Shown here: in pieces, positions 1-42,259 of the stretch
Layout of the letters: the number at the start of each line of letters is the position of its first letter
How positions within the stretch are numbered: the first letter of the stretch is position 1
Virus record (IMG/VR): IMGVR_UViG_3300020180_000042
Location: 1 to 42,259 of that record
DNA: 42,259 nucleotides
Strand: one strand, 5' to 3'
DNA from: a virus
Notes under the pieces: generated by a model
What the model was told of the DNA's origin: nothing
Seen by the model: only the letters and a program-made list of their open reading frames with translations
Database searches by the model: none
Position numbers and translations under genes: made by a program

Positions 1-160
1 GATTCATCTAGTGGCTTTTTAGGCTCGTGTCGGTCTGGAGATAATCCATGCTCCGCCTGGAACTGTTGAGATCCCTGTACTACTCTTGCGTCGGGTTGTC
101 GGTATCCGGCCTTCTGTGGTGATGGGAGAAGCTCCGCTCCTGCTCGCTGTTGTTGCTGGA
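1..160. repeat. Terminal direct repeat, left copy
   Basis: Positions 1-160 match 42100-42259 base for base except position 34 (t) against 42133 (a). The overlap shows that the contig closes on itself, giving 42,099 unique bases. It may be an assembly overlap of a circular or permuted genome or a true terminal redundancy; sequence alone cannot say. It lies inside the polyvalent-protein gene, and the mismatch changes one codon (Asp against Val), so it may reflect strain variation. Confidence 0.95.
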
Positions 161-2639: not shown

Positions 2640-2646
2640 TTTGGGG

Positions 2647-11027: not shown

Positions 11028-11784
11028 GGATTAACCTTGTATTATAATTCAGCATACTGTTTGTTAGTATTGGATCAAACCCGCAACTCTCAGCCCATGA
11101 TGCCCAACCAAAAACATCTTTCGGAATACACTTCGAGTTTGCCCCGCGATCGTTTGGATAAACAAAGCTAAACCATAAATCAAACCTGGGGTCGTCTCCA
11201 TAGACTGCCTGTCGAACATTGTAATAATCCACTCCACCAGCTTCACATGCGTCGTATAGTTCCTGACATTGTGCGACCTTGAACATTATGGCTCTATTCT
11301 CAGTCAACTTCACAACTTCTGCCTCTAGGTTAGTGAGTTGACGGATGTTCACGTTAGCATTGTAAACTTGTTGATAAACTTCAATTGCCTTACGCCTGTT
11401 CTCGGCTTCTCCGCCAATAATCATAAATGGGCGAGCCCCCTGGTCTGATAGGGGATGGGCTGTGGTCTCACCGAGGTACTCCGGCTGAAACACAATATGC
11501 TTTTCGTACTTGTCTTCTAAGTGGTCACAAGTCCCTGGCATTATGGTCGAGCGAATAATAATTAGATCTTCCTTGGCTTCTTTAACCACCCCCTCAAGGA
11601 TTGAAGTATCAAGTGAGCCATCTTGCTTATTGGGGGTAGGTACACAAACAAAAGCAACATCACACTTTGCCTTATTCATGAAACCCTGTTCAGGATCATG
11701 GACTACTGCATGAGGAAACAGGCTTTGCATCGCTTTGCCAACCCAACCCAACCCGTAAATTTTGATTGTAGACTTCACCACCAT
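11005..11784 (-). CDS. UDP-glucose/GDP-mannose dehydrogenase family protein lacking the C-terminal domain
   Basis: A 259-residue protein with NAD-binding GLGWVG (11-16), CVPTPNKQDGSLDTS (47-61), IRSTIMPGT (78-86), the central helix region TNLEAEVVKLTEN, and the catalytic-Cys block SKCIPKD (Cys219). Usual members have about 400-450 residues with a C-terminal UDP-binding domain, which is absent here. I chose the ATG at 11784, preceded by AGGG; the longer reading from 11865 lacks a site. It would oxidise a nucleotide sugar to a uronic acid, if active in this short form, feeding the glycosyltransferases downstream. Confidence 0.85.
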   Translation of the reverse strand: MVVKSTIKIYGLGWVGKAMQSLFPHAVVHDPEQGFMNKAKCDVAFVCVPTPNKQDGSLDTSILEGVVKEAKEDLIIIRSTIMPGTCDHLEDKYEKHIVFQPEYLGETTAHPLSDQGARPFMIIGGEAENRRKAIEVYQQVYNANVNIRQLTNLEAEVVKLTENRAIMFKVAQCQELYDACEAGGVDYYNVRQAVYGDDPRFDLWFSFVYPNDRGANSKCIPKDVFGWASWAESCGFDPILTNSMLNYNTRLIHDGKYSN

Positions 11785-12180: not shown

Positions 12181-12844
12181 ATAAGAAATCTGGCGATGGT
12201 GAAGCACTCGAGCTACTAGATGCGCTAGGTGATAGCGATGCGCTAGGTGAGCGCGATGCGCTAGGGCTTACAGAAGCCGAAGTTGAACTTGATGGACTTA
12301 ATGATGAGCTTGGGCTTATAGAAGCACTAGGTGAAATTGAGGTTGATGAGCTAGGTGAAATTGAAGCTGAGGGTGATAGTGATGCTGACGTACTCACGTC
12401 TGCGTAGTTTGAAGATACCCCGCCATCATTGCTGATTGGCCTCCATAAAACTGTAAACTTGATTGTCCCAGATGCTACTGGAGCAGTTGCAATAGTTAAA
12501 ATAATGTCATCGGTTACTATTTTCTCCGCTACTACGGTTGAGACTTCCACGCTAGCGTCAGGTGTGGCATCGTGCCATATTTCATTTAAGCCTATGGCTG
12601 TACCTGTGGTCTGTGCGATAAGTCCAGCTGTAGTCTTTGCTGTGCCTACTTCTAGTGTGGCTGAGGCTCCGGCTAGGTTTACCTCACAAACTGCAATAAT
12701 TTTTACAGCTACTATACCTGTTACATTAAATAATGTATATGCACCAGCAGTTCCAGCTACGTTGCCTGTTCCAAACTTAATCTTGGCGTGATCTTCTATC
12801 CCGTGTCCTGCGATTATATCGTATGTGTTTGAACGACTAGTCAT
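12179..12844 (-). CDS. Virion decoration-like protein with C-terminal Ser/Pro tail
   Basis: A 221-residue protein. Residues 1-150 are Ala/Thr/Val-rich with alternating strands (VKIIAVCEVNLAGASATLEVGT, then a C-terminal strand FTVLWRPIS), as in head decoration or beta-sandwich proteins. Residues about 151-217 are SPSAS/SPSSS repeats like those in the 699- and 820-residue proteins. The tract ends five residues before the C terminus, so it would hang free from the folded domain. It lies downstream of the major capsid gene and just upstream of the sugar cassette. A capsid surface role is inferred from position and composition. Confidence 0.85.
   Translation of the reverse strand: MTSRSNTYDIIAGHGIEDHAKIKFGTGNVAGTAGAYTLFNVTGIVAVKIIAVCEVNLAGASATLEVGTAKTTAGLIAQTTGTAIGLNEIWHDATPDASVEVSTVVAEKIVTDDIILTIATAPVASGTIKFTVLWRPISNDGGVSSNYADVSTSASLSPSASISPSSSTSISPSASISPSSSLSPSSSTSASVSPSASRSPSASLSPSASSSSSASPSPDFL
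12185..12390 (-). repeat. Coding Ser/Pro repeat tract, C-terminal in the 221-residue protein
   Basis: SPSAS, SPSSS and SISPS units in tandem, the same type as at 4042-4575, 5721-5891 and 35588-36016. The DNA units differ in codon choice more than those at 5721-5891, so this copy looks older. Confidence 0.88.
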
Positions 12845-12889
12845 TTTTGTGTTCCTTTTACTTGATTATATCAATCATATCCCTGTTAT

Positions 12890-12918
12890 AGCAACCCCTC
12901 CCGTTTGGAAGGGGTGCT
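12890..12918 (-). promoter_or_regulatory. Strong intergenic hairpin in the head operon
   Basis: On the minus strand an arm AGCACCCCTTCC pairs with GGGAGGGGTTGCT around a 4-nt loop, with one bulge and one mismatch. No T run follows, so it is not a standard intrinsic terminator. It lies between the 142-residue head protein and the Ser/Pro-tail protein and may protect the 3' end of an upstream message or lower read-through. Confidence 0.5.
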
Positions 12919-12936
12919 ATTCCTAGGGGGTTGGGA

Positions 12937-13365
12937 TTAGGCTTCTCGAGCCCAAACACCCTTCATACCAATTAGGTACGGGCCGTTAGTCGCGGCTGTG
13001 CTTTGAATAGTAACTTCGTCACCAATCTTAGCAGTAGTGGCGGTGTTGTTCAGTTGCTTCCCATCGGCGCTGGTTCCGTCAGCGACATTTAAGCCGATGA
13101 TGGTATCTGAGCCGTTAGGGTCAACAGAAATCAAGTTTCCATCATCACCTGTACCTGCTGCACCATTTGTCTGTGGGACTCCGCCATTACGGATTGTCCA
13201 CACACCCGATACAGCCGTAGCTGGGAGGGTAATTACAGCATTAGTGTAGATTACATTTTGTACATAACCTACATCGGCTGCGACAAGTGTCTTAACTTCT
13301 GTTACATCCACCCATAGCCTTCCATCGTTTCCGACATAAGCTGTTGTATTTGCTGGATTTGCCAT
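12937..13365 (-). CDS. Putative head decoration protein
   Basis: A 142-residue, Thr/Val/Ala/Gly-rich protein with beta-strand spacing (WTIRNGG, SDTIIGLNV, GDEVTIQS, YLIGMKGVW). It stands two genes downstream of the major capsid gene. Its ribosome-binding leader, AAAGGAAATAAAAAATGGC, is the same as that of the major capsid gene, which points to similarly high expression. The size, composition and place fit a decoration or cement protein; I do not recognise a named family. Confidence 0.8.
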   Translation of the reverse strand: MANPANTTAYVGNDGRLWVDVTEVKTLVAADVGYVQNVIYTNAVITLPATAVSGVWTIRNGGVPQTNGAAGTGDDGNLISVDPNGSDTIIGLNVADGTSADGKQLNNTATTAKIGDEVTIQSTAATNGPYLIGMKGVWAREA

Positions 13366-18234: not shown

Positions 18235-18434
18235 TCCTTGTCCTCCACAAATACTTCGCCAGGTCTATACATATAGACTTGTTGAGCCCAAACTTTGCCC
18301 TTGTGTTTGCGCATTATTTTGAGTTGGGTTCCATCGGGTTTGGGTTCTCCAAAAAATAACACCTCCCCAACATTCATTCTTTTTCTACCCTCCTTAGATA
18401 ACTCCGGTGTTAAGTCAATCCATTTCATGCCCAT
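18231..18434 (-). CDS. Small protein of unknown function after the large terminase
   Basis: A 67-residue basic protein with an SH3-like or small beta-barrel pattern (GEVLFFGEPKPDGTQLKIMRKHKGKVWAQQVYMY, seen in two parts). It overlaps the terminase end by 10 bp and the next start by 4 bp. Family not recognised. Confidence 0.7.
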   Translation of the reverse strand: MGMKWIDLTPELSKEGRKRMNVGEVLFFGEPKPDGTQLKIMRKHKGKVWAQQVYMYRPGEVFVEDKE

Positions 18435-19621
18435 AACCCCACAATGTTGCCACTCTTATATATTTTCTTTTCATCCTTGCTTGGGCGCATCGACTCCAAG
18501 CCATAACGGATAGCGTCCATTGCATCAGAGAAATCGTGATCGGGGGTGTCAATTACGAACCCTTCGCGATCAGTTTTCCACATGTAGTTCCTATAACTCT
18601 TTATAACATTTGTGGAACGCTTAGTAACACTCATGCGCTGTTCTTGTACCCATTGGATTCCCTGGTTACGACTACCTGCTCCCTTCTGAGCTCCAATAAT
18701 CTGCACTCCATACTCAAGCATCTCCGCGATGGACTTTGGCTCGGCGGAGTCTGCTATCACTAGAACACTGGTCAGCGCTGAGGAGTTGATGTAATCCGCC
18801 ACCTTACGGTTACTCATGTGGGTGCGATGGATCAACTCATCCACGACATACCCCCCATTATACGAATAGAGCGCTACTAAGGCGACTGGATCGTTGGCAT
18901 AACCAAAGTCTAGCCCGAGGCGTTCTAGTCTGGCTTCATGCGGCACTTTATCAATGATAGCCCAATCCTTATAAATTTTACCTTCCACTTCGCCGAGTTG
19001 CCCGAGCCCATAGACCTTCCACCAGCTCTTGTTGTGTTTGCGGGCTTCGATTGCTTTCACGATTTTCTCATCTAGAGCCTCATTATCCTTATAAGTTAGG
19101 GTGATGAAGTCGAGATCTTCAGCCCGGAACGGTAAAACTTCCGAGTAGAACCAAAACTCGTTGGTTGGATTCCAATCTAGCCAGATCTCTTGCTTGGTGC
19201 GAACTTCTAACTGATCAAAGGAATGATACGGACAGTTATTAGCCTCATTCATAAATAGGATATCACGCCGGGGCCCGCGTACCTTGTCGGGCGAGTCCAC
19301 CCCAAAGAACTCCATTTTCACATTAGGCCCGAAGTTGTAGCTAAAATCAGTCCTATTATACTGAAACTCCTTAAAGTATCCATGTCCCTCCATGATATTT
19401 ATAAAATCTCGCATCGCACCACGTTTAAGGTGAGGCAATGATTCTGACACAACTGAAACTAGCAACTGTTCATTCTTGTTAGCTGCTATCTGGCACTTGT
19501 CTATTAGAATTAAAAGAATCGAAATTGTTTTCGAGGCCGAGGTTCCGCCGGCTACGGCTTTGATTCGCTTCTTTAGTGCTAAAAGTTTATTTGTTCCTGT
19601 TACAGCTTTGTACTCACCCAC
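18425..19621 (-). CDS. terL: Terminase large subunit (ATPase and nuclease)
   Basis: A 398-residue protein read from the GTG at 19621 (AAGGAG 6 nt upstream); a TTG one codon earlier is possible. Walker A is AGGTSASKT (24-32). Walker B is DILFMNEAN (120-128), with Asn-Glu in place of Asp-Glu. The RNase H-like nuclease follows: LDFGYANDP (Asp238), VLVIADSAEPKS (Asp291) and DHDFSDAMDAIRYGL near 361-375. It cuts and pumps DNA into the procapsid at the portal. It is short compared with most large terminases but has every core motif. The promoter at 19642-19664 lies directly upstream. Confidence 0.95.
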   Translation of the reverse strand: MGEYKAVTGTNKLLALKKRIKAVAGGTSASKTISILLILIDKCQIAANKNEQLLVSVVSESLPHLKRGAMRDFINIMEGHGYFKEFQYNRTDFSYNFGPNVKMEFFGVDSPDKVRGPRRDILFMNEANNCPYHSFDQLEVRTKQEIWLDWNPTNEFWFYSEVLPFRAEDLDFITLTYKDNEALDEKIVKAIEARKHNKSWWKVYGLGQLGEVEGKIYKDWAIIDKVPHEARLERLGLDFGYANDPVALVALYSYNGGYVVDELIHRTHMSNRKVADYINSSALTSVLVIADSAEPKSIAEMLEYGVQIIGAQKGAGSRNQGIQWVQEQRMSVTKRSTNVIKSYRNYMWKTDREGFVIDTPDHDFSDAMDAIRYGLESMRPSKDEKKIYKSGNIVGLWA

Positions 19622-19641
19622 CAAGGACTCCTTTTGTTTCT

Positions 19642-19664
19642 ATTATACCATTACCTAATCGTGT
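19642..19664 (-). promoter_or_regulatory. Extended -10 promoter for the large terminase
   Basis: Minus strand TGGTATAAT (TATAAT at 19642-19647) with no good -35 box. AATGGTATAATAGAAACAAA here matches AATGGTATAATAGATACAAA at the small terminase, with one difference in 20. The 18-bp repeats directly upstream could be activator or repressor sites. Confidence 0.6.
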
Positions 19665-19704
19665 AGCGATAACTAATCGTGTAGCGATAACTAATCGTGT
19701 ATAA
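19655..19704. repeat. Tandem 18-bp iterons
   Basis: CTAATCGTGTAGCGATAA occurs at 19655-19672 and 19673-19690, then a third partial copy begins at 19691. They sit directly upstream of the terminase -10 box and may bind a regulator or an initiator. Confidence 0.8.
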
Positions 19705-20022
19705 CTACACGCGCGTAACATTATATTTTACAGGGTGTATGCCCTCTCGGTGTGCTATCGATACAATGGGTACTTTTGTCAATAGCCAACAGGTTAGATC
19801 GTACAATTAGCCTGTAATACCATACCTATAATTGGTATAACCCCCTGTTTTCTGGCACTTTCTCGGTTAGCGTGTGTTAGTTATTACGTTATATCTAGCC
19901 ATTACCTTACGGAATAGGGTTAAGACGGGGATATCTATAGTGGGGGGGACAGGGCAAGCTACACCTTATATGAAGACATCCTAGAGACTCCTTATTGGGA
20001 TTCAAAGGGGGGGTGGGTATAT

Positions 20023-20144: not shown

Positions 20145-20175
20145 GCTACACGCGTTATGTGGTTGTATGGTTAAA

Positions 20176-20268
20176 CGATTGTAAGAGGTCATAAGGGATT
20201 GTAAGAGATTGTAAGAGGTTATAAACGATAGTAAGTGAGTTGTAAGTGAGGTTATAAGGGGTTATAGG
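20176..20268. repeat. Iteron-like repeats around TGTAAGAG and GGTTATAAG
   Basis: Five TGTAAG(A/T)G-like units and four GGT(T/C)ATA(A/G) units alternate. The irregular spacing and A+T richness resemble origin iterons. Confidence 0.6.
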
Positions 20269-20293: not shown

Positions 20294-20755
20294 CTATTGC
20301 TTATCTACTACTTCAGCCTTAATTGAACTACCACCGAGTATTGGTTGAACTATATTTACTGTTGTACCTGCCTTATTACCTTTAAGACCTAGTATCTCTG
20401 ATAATATCTCGTAGGCTTTGAGATTAGTATCTGCCGGTGATCGGCTATCTATATCCTTATTTGTTGCTAGTTGATAAATGCCCTGTTTAATATGTTCTGT
20501 GTCTAAATTAAGCCGGTCAATGTATTCCGATAGCCAATGGGGTGCTAAATGAGTGATATTAGCGCTGTATGACTTAGAGAAGCCGGCTTTTAGTCCACTT
20601 CTATAGGCATTTCCAAAGGTTTCTGATGTCGGAGTGAGCCAGAACTCCATCATCGCTCGTTGGCGTTTGTTGCCTTTCCATAATGCTACAGCTTGTTGTT
20701 TCTCCGTGTCGGTTAAGGCTTCTTTGCCCACCTTCAAGAGTTTGTTTGTTGCCAT
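20294..20755 (-). CDS. terS: Terminase small subunit
   Basis: A 153-residue protein. The N-terminal half has a helix-turn-helix pattern (SETFGNAYRSGLKAGFSKSY then HLAPHWLSEYI), as in small terminases that recognise phage DNA and load the large subunit. A middle helical oligomerisation region and a flexible C-terminal tail (VQPILGGSSIKAEVVDKQ) follow. It is the first gene of the late operon, behind a promoter with phased upstream repeats, and is parted from terL by the non-coding region. Confidence 0.85.
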   Translation of the reverse strand: MATNKLLKVGKEALTDTEKQQAVALWKGNKRQRAMMEFWLTPTSETFGNAYRSGLKAGFSKSYSANITHLAPHWLSEYIDRLNLDTEHIKQGIYQLATNKDIDSRSPADTNLKAYEILSEILGLKGNKAGTTVNIVQPILGGSSIKAEVVDKQ

Positions 20756-20856: not shown

Positions 20857-21594
20857 TTACATTACCTTAGTTGAGAAATATATTTGTTTGTTACTTAAAC
20901 AGTTGTAGTTGTAGATCTCCTCGATAGCTCTTAAGTACGCGCCCTTGCTGTCGAATGGTAACAAGGTTTGCTTGGCAAATGGTGTCTCTAGCCGAGTTAG
21001 AAACCACTTCCAATCAAATTTGGGGGTATTCAAAGCTACTAGGATAGCTTCAGCGAAGCCTTTGCGCTTATAGTCCACATAATATTCTTGACACTCCATT
21101 AGTCTTCCGAGGTTCTTCTCGGCGTCTTTTAGATCACCTACCCTAAATAGCCCGTTACGGAACATTGTGACGGTTGGAAAGACTCCAGATCCGGCTAGGT
21201 AAGCTACTATAATGTTGTGTCCGAATGGATAATTCTCCACAACATTTAGGTAAACCTTATAGTCCGTACTGCCGTTCTCGGCGTACGAATGAGCGTAGTC
21301 CTTGGGTGTCCAGGTTTTAACTAATGAGTTAAGTTTCTGGGCATCCTCGAGCTTTAGCCCGGTATGTTCGATGAAGTAGACTGGTAGTTCGAGGATCTTG
21401 AGCGCTTCTAAGCGATGTTGACCGTCGATTACTTGCCAATCCTCATTTACTAAAATTGGATTGTATTTGATTGCTTCAGTGTTCTCTTTGTATGCCCCTA
21501 CGAGTCGATTGATATGAGCTTTATTGATGTCTCTGTTGCCTCTGATTGTCTTGAACTTTGAATAGTCCACTGACGATTGTATAGCTGTTGACAT
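20857..21594 (-). CDS. ParB/Srx-like domain protein
   Basis: A 245-residue protein. An N-terminal ParB-like nuclease/NTP-binding domain shows NPILVNEDWQVIDGQHRLEALKIL (45-68), where IDGQHRLEA matches the conserved core of the ParB/sulfiredoxin superfamily. The rest is helical. I chose the ATG at 21594 (AAGGAG upstream) rather than the reading from 21636, which would start inside the inverted repeat. Such proteins in phages act in DNA binding, nicking or regulation. It is the last gene before the late operon and has its own promoter at 21654-21682. Confidence 0.85.
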   Translation of the reverse strand: MSTAIQSSVDYSKFKTIRGNRDINKAHINRLVGAYKENTEAIKYNPILVNEDWQVIDGQHRLEALKILELPVYFIEHTGLKLEDAQKLNSLVKTWTPKDYAHSYAENGSTDYKVYLNVVENYPFGHNIIVAYLAGSGVFPTVTMFRNGLFRVGDLKDAEKNLGRLMECQEYYVDYKRKGFAEAILVALNTPKFDWKWFLTRLETPFAKQTLLPFDSKGAYLRAIEEIYNYNCLSNKQIYFSTKVM

Positions 21595-21620
21595 TATAAT
21601 TGTCTCCTTTTTCTTTAGTA

Positions 21621-21637
21621 GGGGAGCAGAATTCAAG
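21621..21637. repeat. Inverted repeat, right arm, beside the ParB-like gene
   Basis: GGGGAGCAGAATTCAAG, the reverse complement of 20835-20851. It lies in the 5' leader of the gene, so in RNA the two arms could pair across the whole coding region. Confidence 0.85.
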
Positions 21638-25294: not shown

Positions 25295-25563
25295 GCTAAG
25301 AACCTGTCTAACTCTTTACGGGGCTTTTTAACATTATCCAGGTAATCCAATAAACTTTCAGTAGGCTCTTGATTATTAGAACACTTTGAGTGAACCCTAT
25401 AAAACCAAGAGCGTAAATCGTCTGCCCTAATGCTTATTGTTTTTGTAGTACCATATACTAAGGGTTCATCACAAACTAGACAAACAACACCCATTGGGTC
25501 ATATTTTGGTTCTTGCGAAGACTTATCAAAATATCCATAGTTTCCTATATCAAACTTACTCAT
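25291..25563 (-). CDS. Small protein with a possible zinc site
   Basis: 90 residues with VCLVCDEPLVYGTTKTISIRADDL and VHSKC: two Cys followed at a distance by His and Cys, a likely zinc knuckle. The RADDLRSWFYRVHSKC phrase is like small phage proteins that carry a HxxC pair. Function unknown. It overlaps both neighbours by 4 bp. Confidence 0.72.
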   Translation of the reverse strand: MSKFDIGNYGYFDKSSQEPKYDPMGVVCLVCDEPLVYGTTKTISIRADDLRSWFYRVHSKCSNNQEPTESLLDYLDNVKKPRKELDRFLA

Positions 25564-26042
25564 CTTTTACTTCCCTCTTTAAGTACATAAACAGCACCAT
25601 CAATAGTAATTTCTTTAGGGTTACTGGTCTGCTCTTTTGGTGGAAGTATTAGCTTGCCATCCAAGCAGATTGGCTCTTGGTGGTCAGTTCGTCGTGGGGT
25701 TATTGACGCACACTTAATATAATTATATGAAAGACAAAGTGCTTGGTAGCTAATGTCGTCAGCAACGATGTCGTTAGCAACGATGTCATTAGCGTTGATG
25801 TCGCTAGCAAAGATGTCGTTAGCGTTGATGTCGTAAGCGTTGATGTTGCGAGCAAAGATGTCGTTAGCGTTGATGTCGTAAGCGTTGATGTTGCGAGCCT
25901 TGATGTCGTGAGCTCTGATGTCGTAAGCGGCGATGTCGGCATCTATTGATATTGAACATTCAAACGTAACGCTATCCTTAATGCTTAGTACACCATCTGT
26001 TATGTCTTTCTCTACTTCTGCTTGTGTCTTGTATATTTTCAT
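25560..26042 (-). CDS. Pentapeptide-repeat protein
   Basis: A 160-residue protein. Residues about 33-95 are a run of five-residue units of the form A-x-(D/N)-I-x, about twelve in number (for example ANDIF ARNIN AYDIN). This fits the A(D/N)Lxx rule of pentapeptide-repeat proteins, which fold as a right-handed square beta helix. Some relatives mimic DNA and bind gyrase (MfpA and Qnr type). A short N-terminal cap and a C-terminal domain with ITIDGAVYVLKEGSKR flank it. The array is short, so any DNA mimicry would need a dimer. It ends in the repeated GSKR junction. Confidence 0.8.
   Translation of the reverse strand: MKIYKTQAEVEKDITDGVLSIKDSVTFECSISIDADIAAYDIRAHDIKARNINAYDINANDIFARNINAYDINANDIFASDINANDIVANDIVADDISYQALCLSYNYIKCASITPRRTDHQEPICLDGKLILPPKEQTSNPKEITIDGAVYVLKEGSKR
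25757..25936. repeat. 15-bp tandem coding repeats
   Basis: Units such as GTCGTTAGCGTTGAT (plus strand) repeat about twelve times at a 15-bp period, with a larger 60-bp unit repeated near 25802-25906. They encode the pentapeptide array. There are no unique spacers, so it is not a CRISPR. Confidence 0.88.
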
Positions 26043-27015: not shown

Positions 27016-27255
27016 TTATTTATTATTACGTAGCTTCTGAGCTAACTCGGCAAGCTCAACAAAGTTTTTAACTAGCTCGTGTTGTCGTTGCTCACATTTT
27101 TTAATGTAGGCAATCGATCCAAACATAGCCAACAAATCGCTTGCCCAAAATCCGTATTCTATACACCTATTGCCCGCTTGTGTCCAATCATTATTGGTAA
27201 TACTCTCAACGATCTCCTCAAATTGCTCTACTGTTCGGTATTCTTGATAATTCAT
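27016..27255 (-). CDS. Small protein, paralogue B
   Basis: 79 residues: YRTVEQFEEIVESITNNDWTQAG, then IEYGFWASDLL, then LAELAQKLRNNK. It is clearly paralogous to 27439-27675 (YRTIEQFEEIVESMTNGNWTQAG); the two bracket a 47-residue gene. Mostly helical. Not a recognised family; the duplication suggests dosage or divergence in a host-takeover role. Confidence 0.78.
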   Translation of the reverse strand: MNYQEYRTVEQFEEIVESITNNDWTQAGNRCIEYGFWASDLLAMFGSIAYIKKCEQRQHELVKNFVELAELAQKLRNNK

Positions 27256-27438: not shown

Positions 27439-27675
27439 TTAGTTATTACGTAGCTTCTGAGCTAACTCGGCAAGGGTTACAAAGTCTTTGACTAACTCGC
27501 ACCACCGTTGTCCGCACTCTTCAATGTAGTCAACCGCTTCAAGTGCCTTCAGCAAATCGCTTGCCCAAAATCCGTATTCTATACACTCCTCGCCAGCTTG
27601 AGTCCAGTTTCCGTTTGTCATACTTTCAACAATCTCTTCAAACTGTTCTATTGTTCTATATTCTTTTTTATCCAT
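27439..27675 (-). CDS. Small protein, paralogue A
   Basis: 78 residues, paralogous to 27016-27255 along its full length, including YGFWASDLL and the end TLAELAQKLRNN. This is the first gene after the strong promoter at 27702-27731, so it is likely made early and in quantity. Function unknown. Confidence 0.78.
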   Translation of the reverse strand: MDKKEYRTIEQFEEIVESMTNGNWTQAGEECIEYGFWASDLLKALEAVDYIEECGQRWCELVKDFVTLAELAQKLRNN

Positions 27676-28222: not shown

Positions 28223-28549
28223 CTAAAATGGTATTATTTCTTCTTCGGACTGTTGTGGCTCAACATACTTTAGAATCTTGTCCAATTTATCGTTGATTTC
28301 TTGGAGCTGTTCTTCCTTTTTCTCCTCTTGGACTACCGCTTCCATCTTCTTCCCGGTCATAACCTTAGCGCTGTAGCTCTTATATTGCTCGTTGTATTCT
28401 AGTTCCACAGGATCGCCAATCTGGGCTGGGGCAAATACTGTAGCTTGTTTGCCCGTGTTGGTGGTTATCTTCATTAAGCTCCAGGGTTGTCCTTTTTTTC
28501 CAGTACCACTCCTAAAGTTATCGTCAACTATTTGCTCGATGTTTTCCAT
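28223..28549 (-). CDS. SSB-like single-strand DNA-binding protein
   Basis: A 108-residue protein from the ATG at 28549 (AAAGG 8 nt upstream). Residues 1-70 have an OB-like alternation (WSLMKITTNTGKQATVFAP, GDPVELEYNEQYKSY). A Glu-rich coiled segment follows, and the end is SEEEIIPF, close to the acidic Pro-Phe tip by which bacterial SSB proteins recruit partners. It lies between the PD-(D/E)XK exonuclease and a helical protein, a common recombination layout. The OB fold is inferred; the tail is seen directly. Confidence 0.78.
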   Translation of the reverse strand: MENIEQIVDDNFRSGTGKKGQPWSLMKITTNTGKQATVFAPAQIGDPVELEYNEQYKSYSAKVMTGKKMEAVVQEEKKEEQLQEINDKLDKILKYVEPQQSEEEIIPF

Positions 28550-29301
28550 TTTTTTAACCTTTCTGCGCATTGCGGGTATAAATTTTCTAACTTACTCATG
28601 GCTTCGGTTGGACTTAGTGTCATCCAGTCAGGATAGCCCGAGTATTGGGAATTCTCTTGCCAAGGCTCAATAGATTTCCACTCGGGGAGTTCATGGCTTT
28701 CTAGCTGATCGTAGGTTTCTTTGATAGCGTGCTCAATCATCCCCTGAACTTCACCAGTTTCAATTACATGAGGTAGTAATTGGAGATCATCAGCACTGGC
28801 ATAAATAATCACAAAGCTAGGCTTGTTTAGGGCTAAGGCATACAACCCACCCTGTAAAGCATGGCCACGCTTGACACCATTGTAAACTTTGCTCATCTTG
28901 CCATCAGCTCCCTTGCGGGTTTTGGGATTGTTGGGGTCGAGGTATTGCACCTGGGAGTTTTTAACTGACTTAACTTCATAAATCACCCCACCCTTCATAG
29001 CGTCAATATAACCAATGGTATTCTGATACTCTACCCTAACTTGAGTTTCGTCTGGTTCTAGTAAATGTAACATATCTGTTTCCACCATATCACCACGCCT
29101 AAACAATCCTAACGTGTAATCATCGTGTGGCTTGCCTGGAACTCCAATAATATGTAGAACGCGCTCCAAAAGCGGTTTCCCGAGCAACCCAGCGGATAGT
29201 TTGCCTGATGGCTCATGTAAAAGGTTCTTTTTCTCATATTCTTTGCGGATTTGTCTTTTAATGTGTGTGTCAATAGCCGGTTCGAGTTTAGAGTTGATCA
29301 T
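28528..29301 (-). CDS. PD-(D/E)XK exonuclease (RecB/Cas4/YqaJ-like)
   Basis: A 257-residue protein. The catalytic core is GYIDAMKGGVIYEVKSVK (Asp100, Glu109, Lys111), and the following HALQGGLYALAL holds the QxxxY motif (Gln149, Tyr153) of RecB-family nucleases. Only one late Cys is present, so there is no iron-sulfur cluster of the Cas4 kind. It should chew DNA ends to make single strands for the neighbouring SSB-like protein. It overlaps both neighbouring genes. Confidence 0.85.
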   Translation of the reverse strand: MINSKLEPAIDTHIKRQIRKEYEKKNLLHEPSGKLSAGLLGKPLLERVLHIIGVPGKPHDDYTLGLFRRGDMVETDMLHLLEPDETQVRVEYQNTIGYIDAMKGGVIYEVKSVKNSQVQYLDPNNPKTRKGADGKMSKVYNGVKRGHALQGGLYALALNKPSFVIIYASADDLQLLPHVIETGEVQGMIEHAIKETYDQLESHELPEWKSIEPWQENSQYSGYPDWMTLSPTEAMSKLENLYPQCAERLKKWKTSSK

Positions 29302-29515: not shown

Positions 29516-29733
29516 TCTTTTGCTTCTCCTCTCTTACTATTTCTTCCTCCCTTAGACCCAGCGTGGCGGGGGTGTCGAGGGTCTTCAGGTGTGTATTCTT
29601 CATTAGCCCAAGCAAAGCCACCGCCCCGGGATTTCTCCCCTCCAGCCGCTCCTATACCCCTGTACCAGTCCTCGCCATATCTTTTTTTAACAGTTTTGGA
29701 GGCTTTCAATCCCCCTTCGCGTGTACCGGCCAT
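29512..29733 (-). CDS. Small basic KGG-like protein, copy B
   Basis: 73 residues, Gly/Lys/Arg-rich: KTVKKRYGEDWYRGIGAAGGEKS and a tail HAGSKGGRNSKRGEAKE. It resembles the 67-residue protein at 26391-26594. SD AGGAGG precedes the ATG, and the promoter at 29761-29789 lies directly upstream. Gly-Gly/Lys motifs of this kind occur in stress-type KGG proteins; nucleic-acid binding is likely but inferred. Confidence 0.75.
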   Translation of the reverse strand: MAGTREGGLKASKTVKKRYGEDWYRGIGAAGGEKSRGGGFAWANEEYTPEDPRHPRHAGSKGGRNSKRGEAKE

Positions 29734-29760
29734 AGTCCTCCTTTTTTTCTTACTGTAACT

Positions 29761-29789
29761 AGTATAACATTACGCTGTGTCTTGTTCAA
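29761..29789 (-). promoter_or_regulatory. Strong promoter, copy B
   Basis: TTGAAC (29784-29789), 17-nt spacer, TATACT (29761-29766). The -35 and the spacer are identical to 26630-26658; only the fifth base of the -10 hexamer differs. It lies inside the 3' end of the HNH gene. Confidence 0.82.
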
Positions 29790-30144
29790 GAGATTTGAGT
29801 AGGGCTTTTGACTTTATAAATTCCATTTTGCGATCCTTTTTATGATATGTGTGAGATAGCAATATTATGGCGTTGACCTTGGCTTGCCCTTTTCTTTTGA
29901 CTTGCCACAAGTAGTGCTCCGCCGGATAAGAGGTGAAGTATTGATGGCAACCGAAACAAAGGCTGTCACAGTTATCTGGGTAAAATCTTGTTGCCTCTTT
30001 CCCTCGCCCCTGGAAGTGACTACAATGCAAGGCTGCGGTTGGTGGGGCATACGTTTTATGACATTTCTGGCATTGCCACTTATCCCTAGTTCTTATGTAT
30101 AGGCTGAAGGCTTTGTCGGCCTTATCTATCTTAATCGTGCTCAT
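29770..30144 (-). CDS. NinG/Rap-like HNH endonuclease
   Basis: A 124-residue protein. It begins KADKAFSLYIRTRDKWQCQKCHK and continues LHCSHFQGRGKEATRFYPDN and CFGCHQY, so C25/C28 and C63/C66 bind zinc around an HNH-like core (His40/His43). This order matches lambda NinG (Rap) recombination endonucleases. It heads the recombination cluster. TATAAT sits only 7-8 nt before the ATG, so the message may be almost leaderless, unless it is read from further upstream. Confidence 0.82.
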   Translation of the reverse strand: MSTIKIDKADKAFSLYIRTRDKWQCQKCHKTYAPPTAALHCSHFQGRGKEATRFYPDNCDSLCFGCHQYFTSYPAEHYLWQVKRKGQAKVNAIILLSHTYHKKDRKMEFIKSKALLKSLEQDTA

Positions 30145-30179
30145 ACTTTTATTATAACCCTCCGGAGGGGCTATTTAGT

Positions 30180-30208
30180 TTTACTCATTTTAATAAGTGG
30201 AGTATAAT
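30180..30208 (+). promoter_or_regulatory. Plus-strand promoter for the candidate RNA
   Basis: TTTACT, 17-nt spacer, TATAAT (30203-30208). The -35 box is weak; the -10 box is perfect. It faces away from the HNH gene. Confidence 0.55.
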
Positions 30209-30214
30209 TCCAAT

Positions 30215-30545
30215 TAACTTCTAATTTATAAGTTTTACCAGGAGCATCACTTAGTAGATGTTACAGGGGTATCAAAAGAGCCTGTAAGGATTACTAGCCC
30301 GACAACTTAATACGGATACCTCAGTCTGAAGCAAATCATAGTTAGTACTAGAAAGATAACTACCAGTATAGTAAAAGAAAGCTAACTGCTTAGACAAGGA
30401 AACGGCTTAAGAGGAGGGGAAGCAGACAAATAGAACAAAAGTGCATACGCAGCCCGAAGGGCTAGACATGTTAAAAAAACTATGATAATATAAATATATA
30501 AACTAATAAGAACAGCCTTCTCCTGGGGGCTGTTTTCTTTTATAT
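30215..30545 (+). ncRNA. Candidate structured non-coding RNA of about 330 nt
   Basis: No long frame is present. Pairings by eye: TTACAGG (30261-30267) with CCTGTAA (30281-30287); its loop GGTATC (30268-30273) with GATACC (30315-30320), a pseudoknot; GTCT-g-AAGC (30324-30332) with GCTTAGAC (30388-30395), one bulge; TAGTTA (30339-30344) with TAACTA (30357-30362); loop TACTA (30346-30350) with TAGTA (30369-30373), a second possible pseudoknot; AGCCC-gaa-GGGCT (30451-30463). CTGCTT/AAGCAG (30386-30391 with 30420-30425) competes with the bulged stem. An A/T-rich linker leads to an intrinsic terminator (30511-30540). No match to tRNA, tmRNA, RNase P, hammerhead or group I/II cores was recognised. 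Confidence 0.5.
30511..30542 (+). terminator. Intrinsic terminator of the candidate RNA
   Basis: AACAGCC (30511-30517) pairs with GGCTGTT (30528-30534), followed by TTCTTTTAT. Confidence 0.8.
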
Positions 30546-30706
30546 ACAAAATAATCTTCGAAGATTTTACGTTTTCAAGCGATTAGAAACCCTGCTGGGT
30601 ATTTTATTACCCTCATAAAGGCAAAGGGCACATTATGAATAATATAAGCGTCGAAGACAAAGCCACCCTTTATAAGGAGTGAAGTAGAAAAAATGCCATT
30701 ACAGGG

Positions 30707-30735
30707 TTGACATATGCCTTACCCTCAAGTAAGAT
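30707..30735 (+). promoter_or_regulatory. Second plus-strand promoter
   Basis: TTGACA (30707-30712), 17-nt spacer, TAAGAT (30730-30735). The start would be near 30742, only about 12 nt before the terminator hairpin at 30754. Confidence 0.6.
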
Positions 30736-30753
30736 AAACGTATATAGATTTTG

Positions 30754-30780
30754 ACAGCCCCTTGTGGGCTGTTTTGCATT
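30754..30780 (+). terminator. Intrinsic terminator
   Basis: ACAGCCC (30754-30760) pairs with GGGCTGT (30766-30772), followed by TTTGCATTT. With the promoter just upstream it would give an RNA of about 35 nt. Confidence 0.75.
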
Positions 30781-30861
30781 TAGGTGGGTTATCAGCGCGG
30801 AGTTATATTTAGCTCGGCATTTTTTGATGATGAACCGATAGACGAAGACTTCTTAGATAAA

Positions 30862-30894
30862 AGGTAAAACCCCCGATTACTCAGGGGCTTGTAC
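30862..30894 (-). terminator. Intrinsic terminator after the tiny-gene cluster
   Basis: On the minus strand GCCCCTGAGTAATCGGGGG forms a short stem, followed by TTTTACCTTTT. It lies 2 bp past the stop of the 57-residue gene. Confidence 0.75.
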
Positions 30895-30895
30895 C

Positions 30896-31069
30896 TTATA
30901 GGGGCAACTGTCCGATTGCTCGGATCTTACAGTCGAGGGTGAACCTCTCATGCTCCAGCTCAACGATACGGTCACTGACCGTCTTGTGCTGTTGCCTGAG
31001 GATTTGAAGCTCAACTTCCATACCGTGTAATTCACGCACCAGGAGTTCCACTGGGATCTCGGACTCCAC
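30896..31069 (-). CDS. Small coiled-coil protein
   Basis: 57 residues from a GTG at 31069 with GGAGGAGG just upstream: VESEIPVELLVREL, then MEVELQILRQQHKTVSDRIV and ELEHERFTLDCKI. Heptad spacing of Leu/Ile/Val is clear. It overlaps the 78-residue gene by 38 bp. The reading in another frame at 30877-31071 lacks such a pattern. Function unknown. Confidence 0.65.
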   Translation of the reverse strand: MESEIPVELLVRELHGMEVELQILRQQHKTVSDRIVELEHERFTLDCKIRAIGQLPL

Positions 31070-31843: not shown

Positions 31844-32578
31844 CTATTTAAAAATACCACTAACTTTAGCCCATATTTGTTTTACGATGTTATTTGTTTC
31901 AGCTACTTGGTTAGCTGTTTCACTACTCACACCGCCACCCTGCTTCTCTAGCTCGGTAATACGTTTATTCAACACCTTAACCTGGTCGGATAGTTGTTTA
32001 CGCTGGGCGGTAATCTCGCCAGTAGCATCATTTATCCACTGGTAAGCACCTCGTTGTCCTAGTTGAGCACCTGGCTCTGGTTCTCTACCTAATATGTTTA
32101 CATATAAAGCCCGTTCTTGTTCTGGTGTCATATTCTCGTTCCCTTTCAATTTATTAGTTACCATATTATTCAGCTTATTCAGGTCTAAAGTACCTGGACA
32201 GGCTGTCGCTATAAAATCTCGATGCGGCCGGAGTGGAAACTGTCTACCGTATCTTCGGCAAATATCTGCTATTAAGTTGGCTGAGGTTTCGTAAGTGGCT
32301 TCGCTAATTGGAATACTCGGACCACCACGATGCTCAATGCCAATACTCTTTTGGTTGATATCGAAGTTGCCAGCGTGCCAAGCGGTATTACCTTCTTGCA
32401 CATATTGATGCACCACTCCATTACCTACCGCATAATGGGCTGATGTCTGGCTAGTAGCTTTAGTAAAAACTGCATCAGCAGCAGCTACTTCGCCAACTAT
32501 CCAATGGCATACTATCATTTCAATACCCTTACCACCTCGCCCTATACTATAATTTGGTGAGCCAATCCATTCTGCCAT
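31844..32578 (-). CDS. Endolysin, N-acetylmuramoyl-L-alanine amidase (Amidase_2/PGRP type)
   Basis: A 244-residue protein. Zinc ligands fit His25 (IVCHWIV), His118 (HRDFIATACPG) and Cys126, with HYAVG, AWHAGN and SIGIEHRG between, the usual order of type-2 amidases. It cuts the bond between muramic acid and L-Ala in peptidoglycan. The C-terminal part (about 150-244) has a linker region with TPEQERALYVNILGREPEPGA and a coiled coil QRKQLSDQVKVLNKRITELE, perhaps for binding the wall or for oligomerising. AAGGAGG stands 4 nt before the ATG at 32578, overlapping the previous stop. Confidence 0.92.
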   Translation of the reverse strand: MAEWIGSPNYSIGRGGKGIEMIVCHWIVGEVAAADAVFTKATSQTSAHYAVGNGVVHQYVQEGNTAWHAGNFDINQKSIGIEHRGGPSIPISEATYETSANLIADICRRYGRQFPLRPHRDFIATACPGTLDLNKLNNMVTNKLKGNENMTPEQERALYVNILGREPEPGAQLGQRGAYQWINDATGEITAQRKQLSDQVKVLNKRITELEKQGGGVSSETANQVAETNNIVKQIWAKVSGIFK

Positions 32579-32928
32579 CATACCTCCTTAGTTTTAACTA
32601 ATTGCCCAGAACCGTGAGATTCTTGAGAACGTATAACTGCTGACTCTTCAAGGGTCTTAAGTATGTTTTTGTTAGTTGCTTCAATATTCTTTAATGACTT
32701 AGCAGTTTCTGCTAGTGGTATAGAACGAACCAAGTTTAGTTCAGCTTGTACCACAGCAATATCCTTGCCGTGCTGTACACCCAGTGCTGTGCAAGCCTTG
32801 TTATCGTCTTCTAACTGTTTAATGCGTTCCTTGTAAGCCCTAATAACATTCCATAAAGTACCCGAAACCACCAGCGACCCTACGCCAATAATTAGCACTG
32901 CCCAGCTACCTGTTTGCGATATGTCCAT
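32578..32928 (-). CDS. Lysis-cassette membrane protein with coiled coil
   Basis: A 116-residue protein with one N-terminal membrane helix (WAVLIIGVGSLVVSGTLW, about 8-25), then a long charged coil (ERIKQLEDDNKACTALGVQH and beyond). This N-in or N-out anchor plus coil suggests an accessory holin, a spanin-like part or an anti-holin. It overlaps the amidase start, so it belongs to the same unit. An 11-codon frame at 32934-32969 directly upstream (TAATG overlap) may couple its translation. Confidence 0.75.
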   Translation of the reverse strand: MDISQTGSWAVLIIGVGSLVVSGTLWNVIRAYKERIKQLEDDNKACTALGVQHGKDIAVVQAELNLVRSIPLAETAKSLKNIEATNKNILKTLEESAVIRSQESHGSGQLVKTKEV

Positions 32929-37049: not shown

Positions 37050-40000
37050 TCATGCGAGACTCCTGCTTGATAACTTGGGGAGTTTACTGACGGCTAGTCT
37101 CTTAGCCCTACCTTTGTAGCTAGGCTTGCGTACACTGATCCCCTTGGGTGTTCGGATTTTGGATGCCGATGCCGTCTTGAAACCGGTCGTCACAAAGCTG
37201 CCTGAGCCCTTTCGCCCTCGGCCACCACCGCTTCCTGCTCGGCCAGATCGAACATTCCCATACTTGTCATGGAACTTAGAACCACCAAGCTCGGCGTCTA
37301 GGGCTATGACGTTGTTAAGCAAGTCTTGTCCATCCTGAACACTCTCCACATAGTCTAGGATGTCGTTCTTACTCAGGCTGTATAGATCGACCACATCTTT
37401 CTTGTAGTTAGACTTAGTGTGGAGTGTTGCGATTTGCTTGCGCTGGCGGATGTCTTCGATTCCAGATATCTCCCCGGCTTTTTTCATGTCGTTGTAGCGG
37501 GACAAAGCATCCTCATAAGCGGTTTTGGGATCTACATCCTCACTCCCACTAGCAGTCTGAACTTTGCCTAGATAGTCGGTACTAGCCCCTCTTAATACAC
37601 GCCTCTCACCACGTTCAAGGCTTTTTCTGGCATCTTTCTCATTCAGGAAGCCACCTTGCACACCAGTCTCAAACTTGCGAGCGCCTCGGATATCTTGTGC
37701 TACTTGATCGAGTGCCTTCTTTTTCTGCTCAGGTGTTAGGTTCTGATACCCTGGGCTTGCGATTATCTTCTCCCAAGCAGATTTTATTTCAGGCTGTATC
37801 TTAGCGGTTATCTCGTAAATCTGTTTCTCAGTTAGTGGCTCTTTATCATTACCATAGAAACTCTTTGATATCTCCGAGGGTATAGTGGCGGTACTCTTAT
37901 CGTTGTCGTATAGACTGCGAAGCTCGCTTGTCAGTGGGTCAGATTTTGCGGGGCTACTGCGGAAGGGATCGACTATTGCACCTGCACCAAACTGCGGATT
38001 AGTTGTAGGTTCCCCGAATGGCGTGAGCTGGGGGTTAAGTTTTTGACGTAAGCCGGGGATTCGACTCATAACCGACTCGCCAGCACTCATGATTTCCCTT
38101 TTATATGGATCTGTGGCGTTGGCTATATCGGCTGAGATAGTTGGGATCGTTGATCCTGATAGTTGTTCAACGTAACGTTCAGCGTAGCGATCGGGATAAG
38201 AGACAACATCTAATGCGCTTTGAACTCCCTTAAGTGGCGAACTCTCAAGCACTGATTTTATTACCCCACCTATAGTCCCCACTGTAGAGGCTACTGGGTC
38301 TTTGCCGCTCTTTATCTGTTGGGCAAATGTTCCACCCGCGCCCAGTAATGTAAGGACTGGCCCGGTATAGTTAAGCGATCGCCACTCGCCAAAAACTTTG
38401 ATTGACCAAGGTTGTTTGCCCTCTAATTTCCATAATGCTTTCTCTCTTGCATCTGAAGGCGACCCAAGCGTTAGAATCCCATCATTGTAGAGTTTTGCAC
38501 CAAGCACAACCACTCCTGTTCCGGTTAGCCCTTTGCCCATTGCCTCGGCTAGGTCGCGCTGACCAGCTTGAGTATAGGTTCCCCTACTAGCAGATCTTAT
38601 AGCTTTGTAAACTTCAACCGCTGGAGCTGCTGGTGAGTATTTGTAAGCCTTGAAAGCTACTGATGAAGGAACACCAGTAAAAGGTGCAATGATATTTCCG
38701 ATTGCATCCCCCACAGGGCCTTTCTTACCTAGACCTTTTTTTAATCCTGATAGTGCCATCCCTATTGCATTCTTGTCTTGGAATACTGCATCCAAAGCTT
38801 CGTTGGTTGCCCGAGTAAGCATCTCGTCGGGGGGGTTCTTAATAGTGTAGTTTACAAACTTGGCGCGTTCAGCCCCTCGTAAGCCTTTGTTCTTAGCCTC
38901 AGTTATAGCCAAGTCATATAAGCTATTTCTCATCGCGGACATTTTAAATGGTTTATCCGCAGCGGAGTAGAAACCAAACACTGTGTCAGTATAGGCTTGA
39001 GCAGACCTACCTAAAAAACTTTTGCTGAAGTAGACTTTCTTGTAGTCTAGCTTGGTGGTTAGTTCTTCAGCCCCAGTCCCAAGTTTCATAGCCCTGTATC
39101 CCATCTTAGTTCCATCAACACCCCCCGAAGCTATACCTTTAAGGGTAAGAGACTTACTACGGAAGCCAGAAACTTTTGAAAGTGCTGCGTCAAATGCTAC
39201 TGCTGGAACATCAGATAGCTTCTTTATAACGGCGTTGGAGGTGTTACCAACTGCGTTACCGGAGACAGCTCCCTTGAACCCAGTTAGTAGTCCACCTTTC
39301 CAGAGCGTTACTGCCTTACTGATCATTGGAGTTGGAACCAATCGCCCGATTTCGTCAAGCATTTCTTTTTGAGCTACAATCTTCTCGTCACCCTGTAACC
39401 CTCTAAGGTCGAAAGCCATTTTTTTAAGCATCTTTGACTGTTCTGTGGAGATGCGGAGGTTGGCATACTTTTGAGGATCTTGTTGCTTGGCTTTGGTTAT
39501 ACCTCTTTGAGCAAAGGTTAGGATTCCTTCAGGGGTTAGGGCATCGTACGCTGCTAGGATTTGTGAGGCTTGACCTGTTTTTGTTCCGCGTTCTGCCATT
39601 TTCTCAACAATGTCTACAGCTTCTTGATCCCGACTTTTACTCTGAAGGATTGACACTAACTTAACTGACTTAGCTTGAGTCATGGTTCCTACATCATTGG
39701 AGAACCTAGCAACCTCAACTTCTTTATTAAACTTTTTCATATCTAGGATGTTGCCTTTTTGGTCAGCTCCCACTGCCTTGCTTGCCTCATCAAGGGTTTG
39801 CTGGTTATTGAGCTTTGTGTATTTACTATCAACGTTTTTAGCCACGCCTGGTGAAGTCATCGGAGACTCTTTTACGGTAGTAATAAAGCCACGTTCCTTA
39901 GTGCCAGCCTCAACAGGACTGTAGATGTTGTGTCCTGGATCGAGTAGCTTACGCATCTTATATTGGCTTTTTTCAGTCACTATTTTGGTAGCAAAGTCTG

Positions 40001-42259
40001 GATTTTTCTGAATCTTAGTAGCCAGTTGCTCAAAGAGAGTATTGCGGCCACCAATGCTGGCGTTGGCCTTATTAGCTTCATTCACGATCTTTGAAACTGC
40101 TGTTTCGTTTTGAGCCGTAGCTAGTTTATAAGCCATGCCTTTTAGTGAGGTTAATTGATAGGTTTCATCTCCGTACTTAGCCTTGAAATGATCCTCTGCT
40201 ACACCAAACCACTTATCGCGAGTGCGTGTTGCCATTGCTTGGTATAGCTGGCTTTTAGGATTCTTTATATCAGTTAAGAACTCGGGGCGACGACTCACCG
40301 GGATAGCGTTGAGCATTCTGGTTTGATCCTTGGTGGTAAGCTCTGGCTTGCTCAATATCTGTTGTTTAGCAAATGGGATGATGGGTTTGGCAAACTCTTT
40401 CCCACTACGATCTATAAAGCGGATTTCTAGGTTGTGATTCTGGGCATCAAAGATAGTGTTTTTATCAGCCTTTGAAGAAAGTGTTATAACACCTCTGACT
40501 TTCTCGCCGGGATGCGCCTGTTGGTATTGAGCTACGACTTCTGAGTGATATTGAACCGGCCGATCTTGCAAGACTTTTTCCTTACCGCGAACCTTGGCTT
40601 GTATAACAAGAGTCTCGTTGCCTTTTTTAGCAATAACATCTTTCCCATAATCCTTGACACCTTTATCAAGTCCAGTCTGTTCAACTTTGTAGCCTTGTTT
40701 GCGGTAGTAATCGCCACTTATAACCTCGTACTTGTCGCCAACCTTCTTGACACCGGTGGTTTCTACCAGCTTACCTTCTGGACTGACTATCTTACCTTTA
40801 GGTATCGGGATCGATAGCTCAGGTTCAGGGGTTGGGGTGACTAGTGCCTTAGCCGCCTGATACTCTGTACGGAGTTGGGATAATTGGCTTTCTCCTGAAA
40901 CATCTGCCTTTATAGTTCTTTGTCCATTGGCTATTGCTTGGTCTAATCTGTGTCTACCGTCAATCAAATTATGCTTTCCGTCTTGGAAGTAAACTTCTAT
41001 TTTACTATCTATGTTCCTTCCCGCTGATGGTTTTTGTGCTAGCGGTCTTTCTACTAGTTTTATATCGCTAATAGACATTTCCTTTTGAGAAATTCTAGGT
41101 CTGTCTCCCCACAACTTTTGAGCCATTTTTACTTGGTCAATCGGGGAAATCTTACCACCAGAACCAACAGGGGGTTTATCTCCGATAAAAAACTTTTGCG
41201 TATCTGCTTTGTTCAACTTCTCCATATCCCGAATAAAACCATCAAAATCAGAATACTTTTTAGGGTCAATATACTTGATACCGTTGGTTGTTTTAACCTG
41301 CCCCTTCACATACTGCTCCTCTGTGAGACCGTCTTTGACGGCTTGTTTAGCAGGACTTACAGAGGGTTTAGGTTTATCAAAAGCCATCAAGTCCTTGTTT
41401 GTCATGGTTGGTTTGCCGGCTTGGATGGCCTCAATCTGACGATCAGTCTTGGCAATAGCTCCAGTCTTAGTGTTTTGTAAGTAGCCTTCCTTAGTAACCT
41501 TGTAGCCCTTGGGGGCTGGGATGTTGTACTGCGAGTAATCACTAAACTCATCGGGTAGTAGATCGACTTTCTGTTTAGCGAATGGGCGTTGGGCGGGCGG
41601 TATATTTAAAGGTTTACCGTGAGCGTCATAGTTTTGTTTGCCGAAGTTGACCCAAGAGTTCTGACCGCGAGTTTCAGTTGTTAAGGCTTTCTGAGCTTCC
41701 TTGCTAAACATTTGAGAGTGAGCAAACCAGGCTCGTTCTTCACCAGAGGCCGAGAAGGTGCTCCCGGAGCCGTGTCCATAATAATCGTGTATAGCCCGAA
41801 ACATCTCATTATATGAGTGCCCAGTTTTGGGCGAAACCTTGCCTAAAAATGGATGGGGTTCTCCACCCTTGAAGAAGTATAGGTGGCCCTTGGCAATATC
41901 TGAGGCCATCTCTGCGGAGTCCTTATAGGGCTGCCCGGCTTTGTTCCAAGGCTCAAATTTAACACCAAGTTTTTTAGTTGCATACTCCCACTGTTTTTCT
42001 ACATCCTTCTGTAGAGCAGTATAAGCCCGGTGGACTTTAGGGTCTCGGGAGTTATCGGGTTTTAGTTTGTCATAAGCGTCAGCAATCCGCCTGGATAGTG
42101 ATTCATCTAGTGGCTTTTTAGGCTCGTGTCGGACTGGAGATAATCCATGCTCCGCCTGGAACTGTTGAGATCCCTGTACTACTCTTGCGTCGGGTTGTCG
42201 GTATCCGGCCTTCTGTGGTGATGGGAGAAGCTCCGCTCCTGCTCGCTGTTGTTGCTGGA
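37050..42259 (-). CDS. Large polyvalent protein, C-terminal part (continues from 1-2639)
   Basis: The frame is open from the right edge to the stop at 37050; reading from an internal ATG at 41909 gives 1,619 residues, but the true start is at 2639 across the junction. Full-length numbering: HDYYGH (984-989) and TETRGQNSWVNFG (1021-1033), a block common in phage polyvalent proteins; a ParB-like domain about 1213-1288 with LIDGRHRLDQAI; a PD-(D/E)XK nuclease-like domain about 1330-1435 with DVIAKKGNETLVIQAK; then a long helical region with AADKPFK (near 1927) and hydrophobic stretches; and a basic tail rich in Arg/Lys. Several effector domains on one ejected chain fit anti-defence use. Activities are inferred. 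Confidence 0.9.
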   Translation of the reverse strand, partial: QQQQRAGAELLPSPQKAGYRQPDARVVQGSQQFQAEHGLSPVRHEPKKPLDESLSRRIADAYDKLKPDNSRDPKVHRAYTALQKDVEKQWEYATKKLGVKFEPWNKAGQPYKDSAEMASDIAKGHLYFFKGGEPHPFLGKVSPKTGHSYNEMFRAIHDYYGHGSGSTFSASGEERAWFAHSQMFSKEAQKALTTETRGQNSWVNFGKQNYDAHGKPLNIPPAQRPFAKQKVDLLPDEFSDYSQYNIPAPKGYKVTKEGYLQNTKTGAIAKTDRQIEAIQAGKPTMTNKDLMAFDKPKPSVSPAKQAVKDGLTEEQYVKGQVKTTNGIKYIDPKKYSDFDGFIRDMEKLNKADTQKFFIGDKPPVGSGGKISPIDQVKMAQKLWGDRPRISQKEMSISDIKLVERPLAQKPSAGRNIDSKIEVYFQDGKHNLIDGRHRLDQAIANGQRTIKADVSGESQLSQLRTEYQAAKALVTPTPEPELSIPIPKGKIVSPEGKLVETTGVKKVGDKYEVISGDYYRKQGYKVEQTGLDKGVKDYGKDVIAKKGNETLVIQAKVRGKEKVLQDRPVQYHSEVVAQYQQAHPGEKVRGVITLSSKADKNTIFDAQNHNLEIRFIDRSGKEFAKPIIPFAKQQILSKPELTTKDQTRMLNAIPVSRRPEFLTDIKNPKSQLYQAMATRTRDKWFGVAEDHFKAKYGDETYQLTSLKGMAYKLATAQNETAVSKIVNEANKANASIGGRNTLFEQLATKIQKNPDFATKIVTEKSQYKMRKLLDPGHNIYSPVEAGTKERGFITTVKESPMTSPGVAKNVDSKYTKLNNQQTLDEASKAVGADQKGNILDMKKFNKEVEVARFSNDVGTMTQAKSVKLVSILQSKSRDQEAVDIVEKMAERGTKTGQASQILAAYDALTPEGILTFAQRGITKAKQQDPQKYANLRISTEQSKMLKKMAFDLRGLQGDEKIVAQKEMLDEIGRLVPTPMISKAVTLWKGGLLTGFKGAVSGNAVGNTSNAVIKKLSDVPAVAFDAALSKVSGFRSKSLTLKGIASGGVDGTKMGYRAMKLGTGAEELTTKLDYKKVYFSKSFLGRSAQAYTDTVFGFYSAADKPFKMSAMRNSLYDLAITEAKNKGLRGAERAKFVNYTIKNPPDEMLTRATNEALDAVFQDKNAIGMALSGLKKGLGKKGPVGDAIGNIIAPFTGVPSSVAFKAYKYSPAAPAVEVYKAIRSASRGTYTQAGQRDLAEAMGKGLTGTGVVVLGAKLYNDGILTLGSPSDAREKALWKLEGKQPWSIKVFGEWRSLNYTGPVLTLLGAGGTFAQQIKSGKDPVASTVGTIGGVIKSVLESSPLKGVQSALDVVSYPDRYAERYVEQLSGSTIPTISADIANATDPYKREIMSAGESVMSRIPGLRQKLNPQLTPFGEPTTNPQFGAGAIVDPFRSSPAKSDPLTSELRSLYDNDKSTATIPSEISKSFYGNDKEPLTEKQIYEITAKIQPEIKSAWEKIIASPGYQNLTPEQKKKALDQVAQDIRGARKFETGVQGGFLNEKDARKSLERGERRVLRGASTDYLGKVQTASGSEDVDPKTAYEDALSRYNDMKKAGEISGIEDIRQRKQIATLHTKSNYKKDVVDLYSLSKNDILDYVESVQDGQDLLNNVIALDAELGGSKFHDKYGNVRSGRAGSGGGRGRKGSGSFVTTGFKTASASKIRTPKGISVRKPSYKGRAKRLAVSKLPKLSSRSLA
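42100..42259. repeat. Terminal direct repeat, right copy
   Basis: Same as 1-160, with a at 42133 in place of t at 34. Both copies read in the same frame of the polyvalent-protein gene (Val here, Asp in the left copy), which shows that joining the ends restores one gene. Confidence 0.95.

Follow-up and report, generated by a model that had tools for sequence, protein, structure and literature searches.

A candidate counter-strand non-coding transcript between the late and early genes of an uncultured tailed phage

In phage lambda, the OOP RNA is a counter-strand small RNA of the early region, 77 nt in length and antisense to the end of cII. The pRNA of phi29 is likewise a phage non-coding RNA, of a few hundred bases. 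GOLLD and ROOL are large non-coding RNAs that are partly phage-associated, and their structures have been described (PMC12286853). The locus considered here lies at positions 30215-30545 of IMGVR_UViG_3300020180_000042, the 42,259-nt stretch of DNA analyzed as a whole and referred to as the window. It is tentatively read, with a probability of about 45%, as a small non-coding phage RNA gene for a regulatory counter-transcript or small RNA that is OOP-like in layout. As with OOP, a short transcript that has a promoter and terminator of its own would run against the surrounding genes at an early-region control site, although here these features are predicted from the sequence. In contrast to OOP, which overlaps the end of cII, the unit is wholly intergenic and antisense to no target gene, a possible overlap with the NinG 5' leader aside; it is also longer (~330 nt) and has no sequence relation to OOP. 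The likeness to phi29 pRNA ends at size and non-coding nature, as phi29 replaces the two-subunit terminase with a pRNA-dependent ATPase, whereas packaging here falls to a Terminase_3-type TerL with a small-terminase-like gene upstream, and the unit has no Rfam match. Unlike GOLLD and ROOL, it folds no better than shuffled sequence.

The window (~42 kb) is a tailed-phage genome with circular overlap, as judged from its first 160 bases, which recur at its end with 99.4% identity; a circular or terminally redundant molecule would be expected from this repeat. Every convincing gene reads on the minus strand, as originally predicted (Table 1). The gap at 30145-30876 is, with 732 bases, the longest gene-free stretch in its surroundings, and it is bounded by the terminator of the late operon on one edge and the start of the NinG-like gene on the other. 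The predicted unit, which overlaps no ORF, begins some 70 bases away from where NinG starts and is on the other strand.

Table 1. Features of the locus and landmark genes of the window.
Feature	Coordinates	Strand	Basis or remarks
TerL, Terminase_3 type	18425-19624	minus	profile match
Small-terminase-like gene, upstream of TerL	20294-20755		position and synteny only
ParB-like protein	20857-21636	minus	profile match
NinG/HNH-like, first early gene	29770-30144	minus	phrog_5034, E 1.1e-19; Pfam NinG, E 7.5e-7
Perfect palindrome CCCTCCGGAGGG, candidate operator	30158-30169		between plus promoter and minus early gene; one of eight perfect palindromes of at least 12 bp in the genome
Sigma-70-type promoter, TTTACT-17 nt-TATAAT	30180-30208	plus	10/12 consensus matches; PWM 11.3
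Predicted non-coding transcript, ~330 nt	30215-30545	plus	promoter in register with terminator; no ORF >14 codons; top purine content
Hairpin, arms 30252-30267 and 30281-30296	30252-30296	plus	inverted repeat, 75% complementary; present in both MFE and centroid folds
Possible pairing of loop with downstream sequence	30266-30273 with 30315-30322	plus	8 pairs, one G-U; crossing-helix test not significant
Arm GUCUGAAGC with GCUUAGAC; alternative GUCUG with CAGAC	30324-30332 with 30388-30395; alternative with 30423-30427	plus	sequence, MFE fold
AGGAGG, Shine-Dalgarno-like	30412-30417	plus	no ORF starts 5-12 nt downstream
Intrinsic terminator	30509-30545	plus	12-pair stem, U-rich tail; strict genome scan; z -3.75
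Perfect 14-bp palindrome AATCTTCGAAGATT, candidate operator	30553-30566		directly past terminator; one of the two 14-bp perfect palindromes of the genome
Remaining gap, non-coding	30546-30866		z -3.40 plus, -1.72 minus; folds better than unit on plus strand
Terminator of late minus-strand operon	30867-30890	minus	terminator scan
Amidase endolysin	31844-32581	minus	profile match

The plus-strand -10 box on which the original prediction drew is real, and it has a -35 partner that had gone unmentioned, TTTACT at 30180. In scoring against an approximate E. coli sigma-70 matrix, this promoter ranks sixth among the plus-strand sites of the genome, and RNA synthesis is predicted to start near 30215. 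Of the twelve top-scoring promoter-like sites on the plus strand, three fall inside the gap, which is 1.7% of the sequence (binomial probability ~0.001 by our own estimate). Elsewhere on the plus strand, promoter-like sites with 10-11/12 matches also occur within genes. The terminator (stem at 30509-30536) had been called good and ranks first among plus-strand terminators genome-wide; strict criteria yield just one other, which sits within a gene, and the segment 30490-30545 accounts for the z value relative to shuffles given in Table 1. The stretch preceding it, 30470-30508, is AT-rich. The absence of a long frame was also borne out: the longest plus-strand ORFs in the unit run to 9 and 14 codons, and both lack a Shine-Dalgarno sequence and start in suitable positions. 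Small ORFs and recoded frames could be dismissed, as no ORF emerged in the unit even when TAG and TGA were treated as sense codons, and a decayed gene was rejected since no trace of one was detected. Plus-strand purine content reaches its genome-wide maximum at 30223-30512 (0.628, the highest of any 290-base window), while the plus strand is purine-poor elsewhere because the mRNAs are on the minus strand. This maximum fits plus-strand transcription, with the caveat that the low G+C of the sequence inflates both promoter-like and purine signals. Since promoter, terminator, lack of an ORF, and purine peak agree, a short non-coding plus-strand transcript from 30215-30545 is credible. The view that it would be the only clear plus-strand transcript needs qualifying, as the same gap contains a second plus-strand promoter-like site at 30707-30735, which has the best plus-strand score genome-wide under the approximate E. 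coli matrix, and a hairpin at 30753-30773.

Two of the eight perfect palindromes listed in Table 1 flank the unit, and the gap is likely a control region marked by them. Because an origin or packaging site is better placed elsewhere and the palindromes mark a control region, a regulatory counter-transcript is the most economical reading. We infer both the transcription of the unit and its regulatory role. The RNA would be transcribed from the control region separating the late terminator from the early operon, starting near 30215, ending at the intrinsic terminator near 30545, and running against all protein genes. Either the act of transcription, or the RNA itself through base pairing or protein binding, would help to separate late and early minus-strand transcription or would adjust an mRNA of phage or host. 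Among the phage's own mRNAs, the longest antisense matches are 13 nt, A/T-rich or in a U-tract, with E values of 0.17 or worse, which is chance level. If transcribed, the unit would add a counter-strand non-coding RNA to an uncultured phage group with unstudied gene regulation, and it would mark the early/late control region of that group. On its own it does not establish a new class of RNA, since structure and conservation are unproven; it is best read as lineage-specific.

Rfam 15, including GOLLD, ROOL, group I and II introns, and tmRNA, has no match in the window at a covariance-model score at or above the gathering threshold, in line with the original finding of no known RNA family. The identity with GOLLD, ROOL, or an intron that had been considered is not supported, as none matches at any useful score. 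The best sub-threshold matches in 29700-31000, L20_leader (25.7 vs. 58.7) and ctRNA_p42d (24.8 vs. 50), arise because the terminator hairpin carries them. ARAGORN found no tRNA or tmRNA in the window. A blastn search of 50,697 phage records returned AT-rich and terminator matches only. Relatives in IMG/VR were collected through NinG (3 loci), TerL (80 loci), the endolysin (1), and a tail protein (2), and the unit was found in none of these loci by blastn or nhmmer; the nhmmer matches in L029 and L030 (E 0.1) were set aside for large composition bias, the L030 match lying over a coding region. The Cas4-like early protein had no relative in the searches. The DNA seeds CGGCTTAAGAGGAGGGG and GTTTTCAAGCGATTAGAAAC gave 0 matches, and the 11 matches of AGGAGGGGAAGCAGAC lie mostly within coding frames (several being a helicase-like KGGEADN motif), none reaching into the RNA. 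In 379 genomes from the phylum of a TerL-bearing MAG, four matches were obtained, 36-51 bases long; no two fell on the same part of the query, and they were taken as chance. The search for TerL relatives in IMG/VR gave 443 candidates (best 84% identity). The near-complete sister phages G006 (45.8 kb, TerL 79%) and G007 (44.8 kb, TerL 76%) have late genes syntenic with those of the window and early genes opposite in direction to the late ones; neither carries the unit or a like-sized lysis/early gap with similar sequence. In L099, whose endolysin is 73% identical over the first 149 residues, early and late genes share one strand as in the window, and its late/early junction (11140-11345, minus) holds a counter-strand non-coding stretch downstream of a holin-like gene, multibranched, terminator-ended, and with z -4.2. 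This stretch has no sequence similarity to the unit. In the early region of G007 (L011, 7480-7830, minus), about 350 nt of largely non-coding sequence adopt a very stable two-arm fold (z -4.2), with no match in Rfam or the phage records. Both stretches are leads, not homologues. No description of such a locus was found in the literature.

The complementary arms first noticed in the unit are present at the bases given in Table 1, as seen in the sequence and by repeat search, yet they are not telling, because a sequence of 330 nt is expected to contain short complementary segments. The whole unit folds with z -1.25, 9 of 100 shuffles being as good; without the terminator z is -1.17, and for the core (30245-30470) -1.97. 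In a genome-wide scan of 300-nt windows, 30201-30500 has z -1.08, the plus-strand average being -0.12 (sd 1.18). When the best crossing helix is added to the MFE fold, 13.5 to 17.5% of shuffles do equally well. With a stability close to that of shuffles, no significant crossing helix, and no homologue found that could show covariation, the proposed pseudoknotted structure is not borne out; the competing stems do exist, in that 30324-30332 can pair with either downstream segment, but their action as a switch is unsupported. It is thus quite improbable that the unit acts as a structured RNA (a regulatory switch or host-targeting RNA), possibly including 30546-30866, even though the arms exist, the core z is about -2, the purine-rich AGGAGG stretch is unpaired in the predicted fold, and the downstream segment reaches z -3.4, a depth below -3 that 2% of plus-strand and 4% of minus-strand windows also attain genome-wide. 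In that part of the gap the minus strand sometimes folds better, and the window 30601-30900 gives z -4.2 on the minus strand. At 30571-30590, GTTTTCAAGCGATTAGAAAC resembles a CRISPR repeat in style and has no exact copy in IMG/VR. More doubtful still is the proposal that 30215-30866 as a whole would form one two-module non-coding RNA locus with a well-folded downstream module, acting on the host or on the late/early switch, and that structured RNAs unrelated in sequence recur at this junction in the phage group, the L099 and G007 stretches being the points of comparison.

The ordinary fold and the empty homologue searches are what would be expected if the unit were unconstrained or fast-decaying intergenic filler, its promoter-like site fortuitous, as the similar sites inside genes allow, and its hairpin serving something else. 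This account is somewhat unlikely yet a serious contender, and it has to set aside the coincidence at one place of a promoter, the best plus-strand terminator, and the top purine window. The main mechanistic alternative, an unlikely one, is that the RNA acts as a cis-antisense to the leader at the 5' end of the minus-strand early mRNA (the NinG operon) and controls its elongation or translation. The short distance from the NinG start fits such control, and minus-strand promoter-like sites beyond the unit (30660-30632, score 9.3, and 30578-30551, which overlaps the 14-bp palindrome) would yield a complementary leader; however, these sites score well under the evident minus promoters of the phage (13-14), and the leader itself is hypothetical. 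A packaging or virion RNA, which had also been suggested, or a replication primer RNA would be consistent with the AT-rich stretch before the terminator and with the fact that no replication initiator was recognized among the early genes scanned. The TerL is an ordinary one, the two sister phages lack the unit, and the iteron arrays that lie between the terminase genes make a better candidate for an origin or packaging site, leaving this role very improbable.

These arrays lie in the 669 bases that separate TerL from the small-terminase-like gene, with tandem repeats at 19648-19708 and 20172-20231 that have an 18-bp period (TAATCGTGTAGCGATAAC-like) and a 10-bp period (GATTGTAAGA-like); the sequence at 19.65-20.23 kb is likely an origin or packaging site. 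The genome scan reaches its lowest folding z, -5.9, at 12801-13100 (minus), around the gap that separates two late genes. On the minus strand, a 160-aa protein (25560-26042) contains pentapeptide-like repeats (AYDIN, ANDIF, etc.), two small genes at 27016-27255 and 27439-27675 are tandem paralogs (EYRT.EQFEEIVES.TN...), and a small early protein (28223-28570) without a confident family match ends in an acidic SSB-like tail (EEEIIPF). An 891-codon frame at 1-2675 (minus) is open to the start of the record and may join the 1619-aa frame at 37050-42259 (minus) across the circular overlap, forming one very large virion protein gene.
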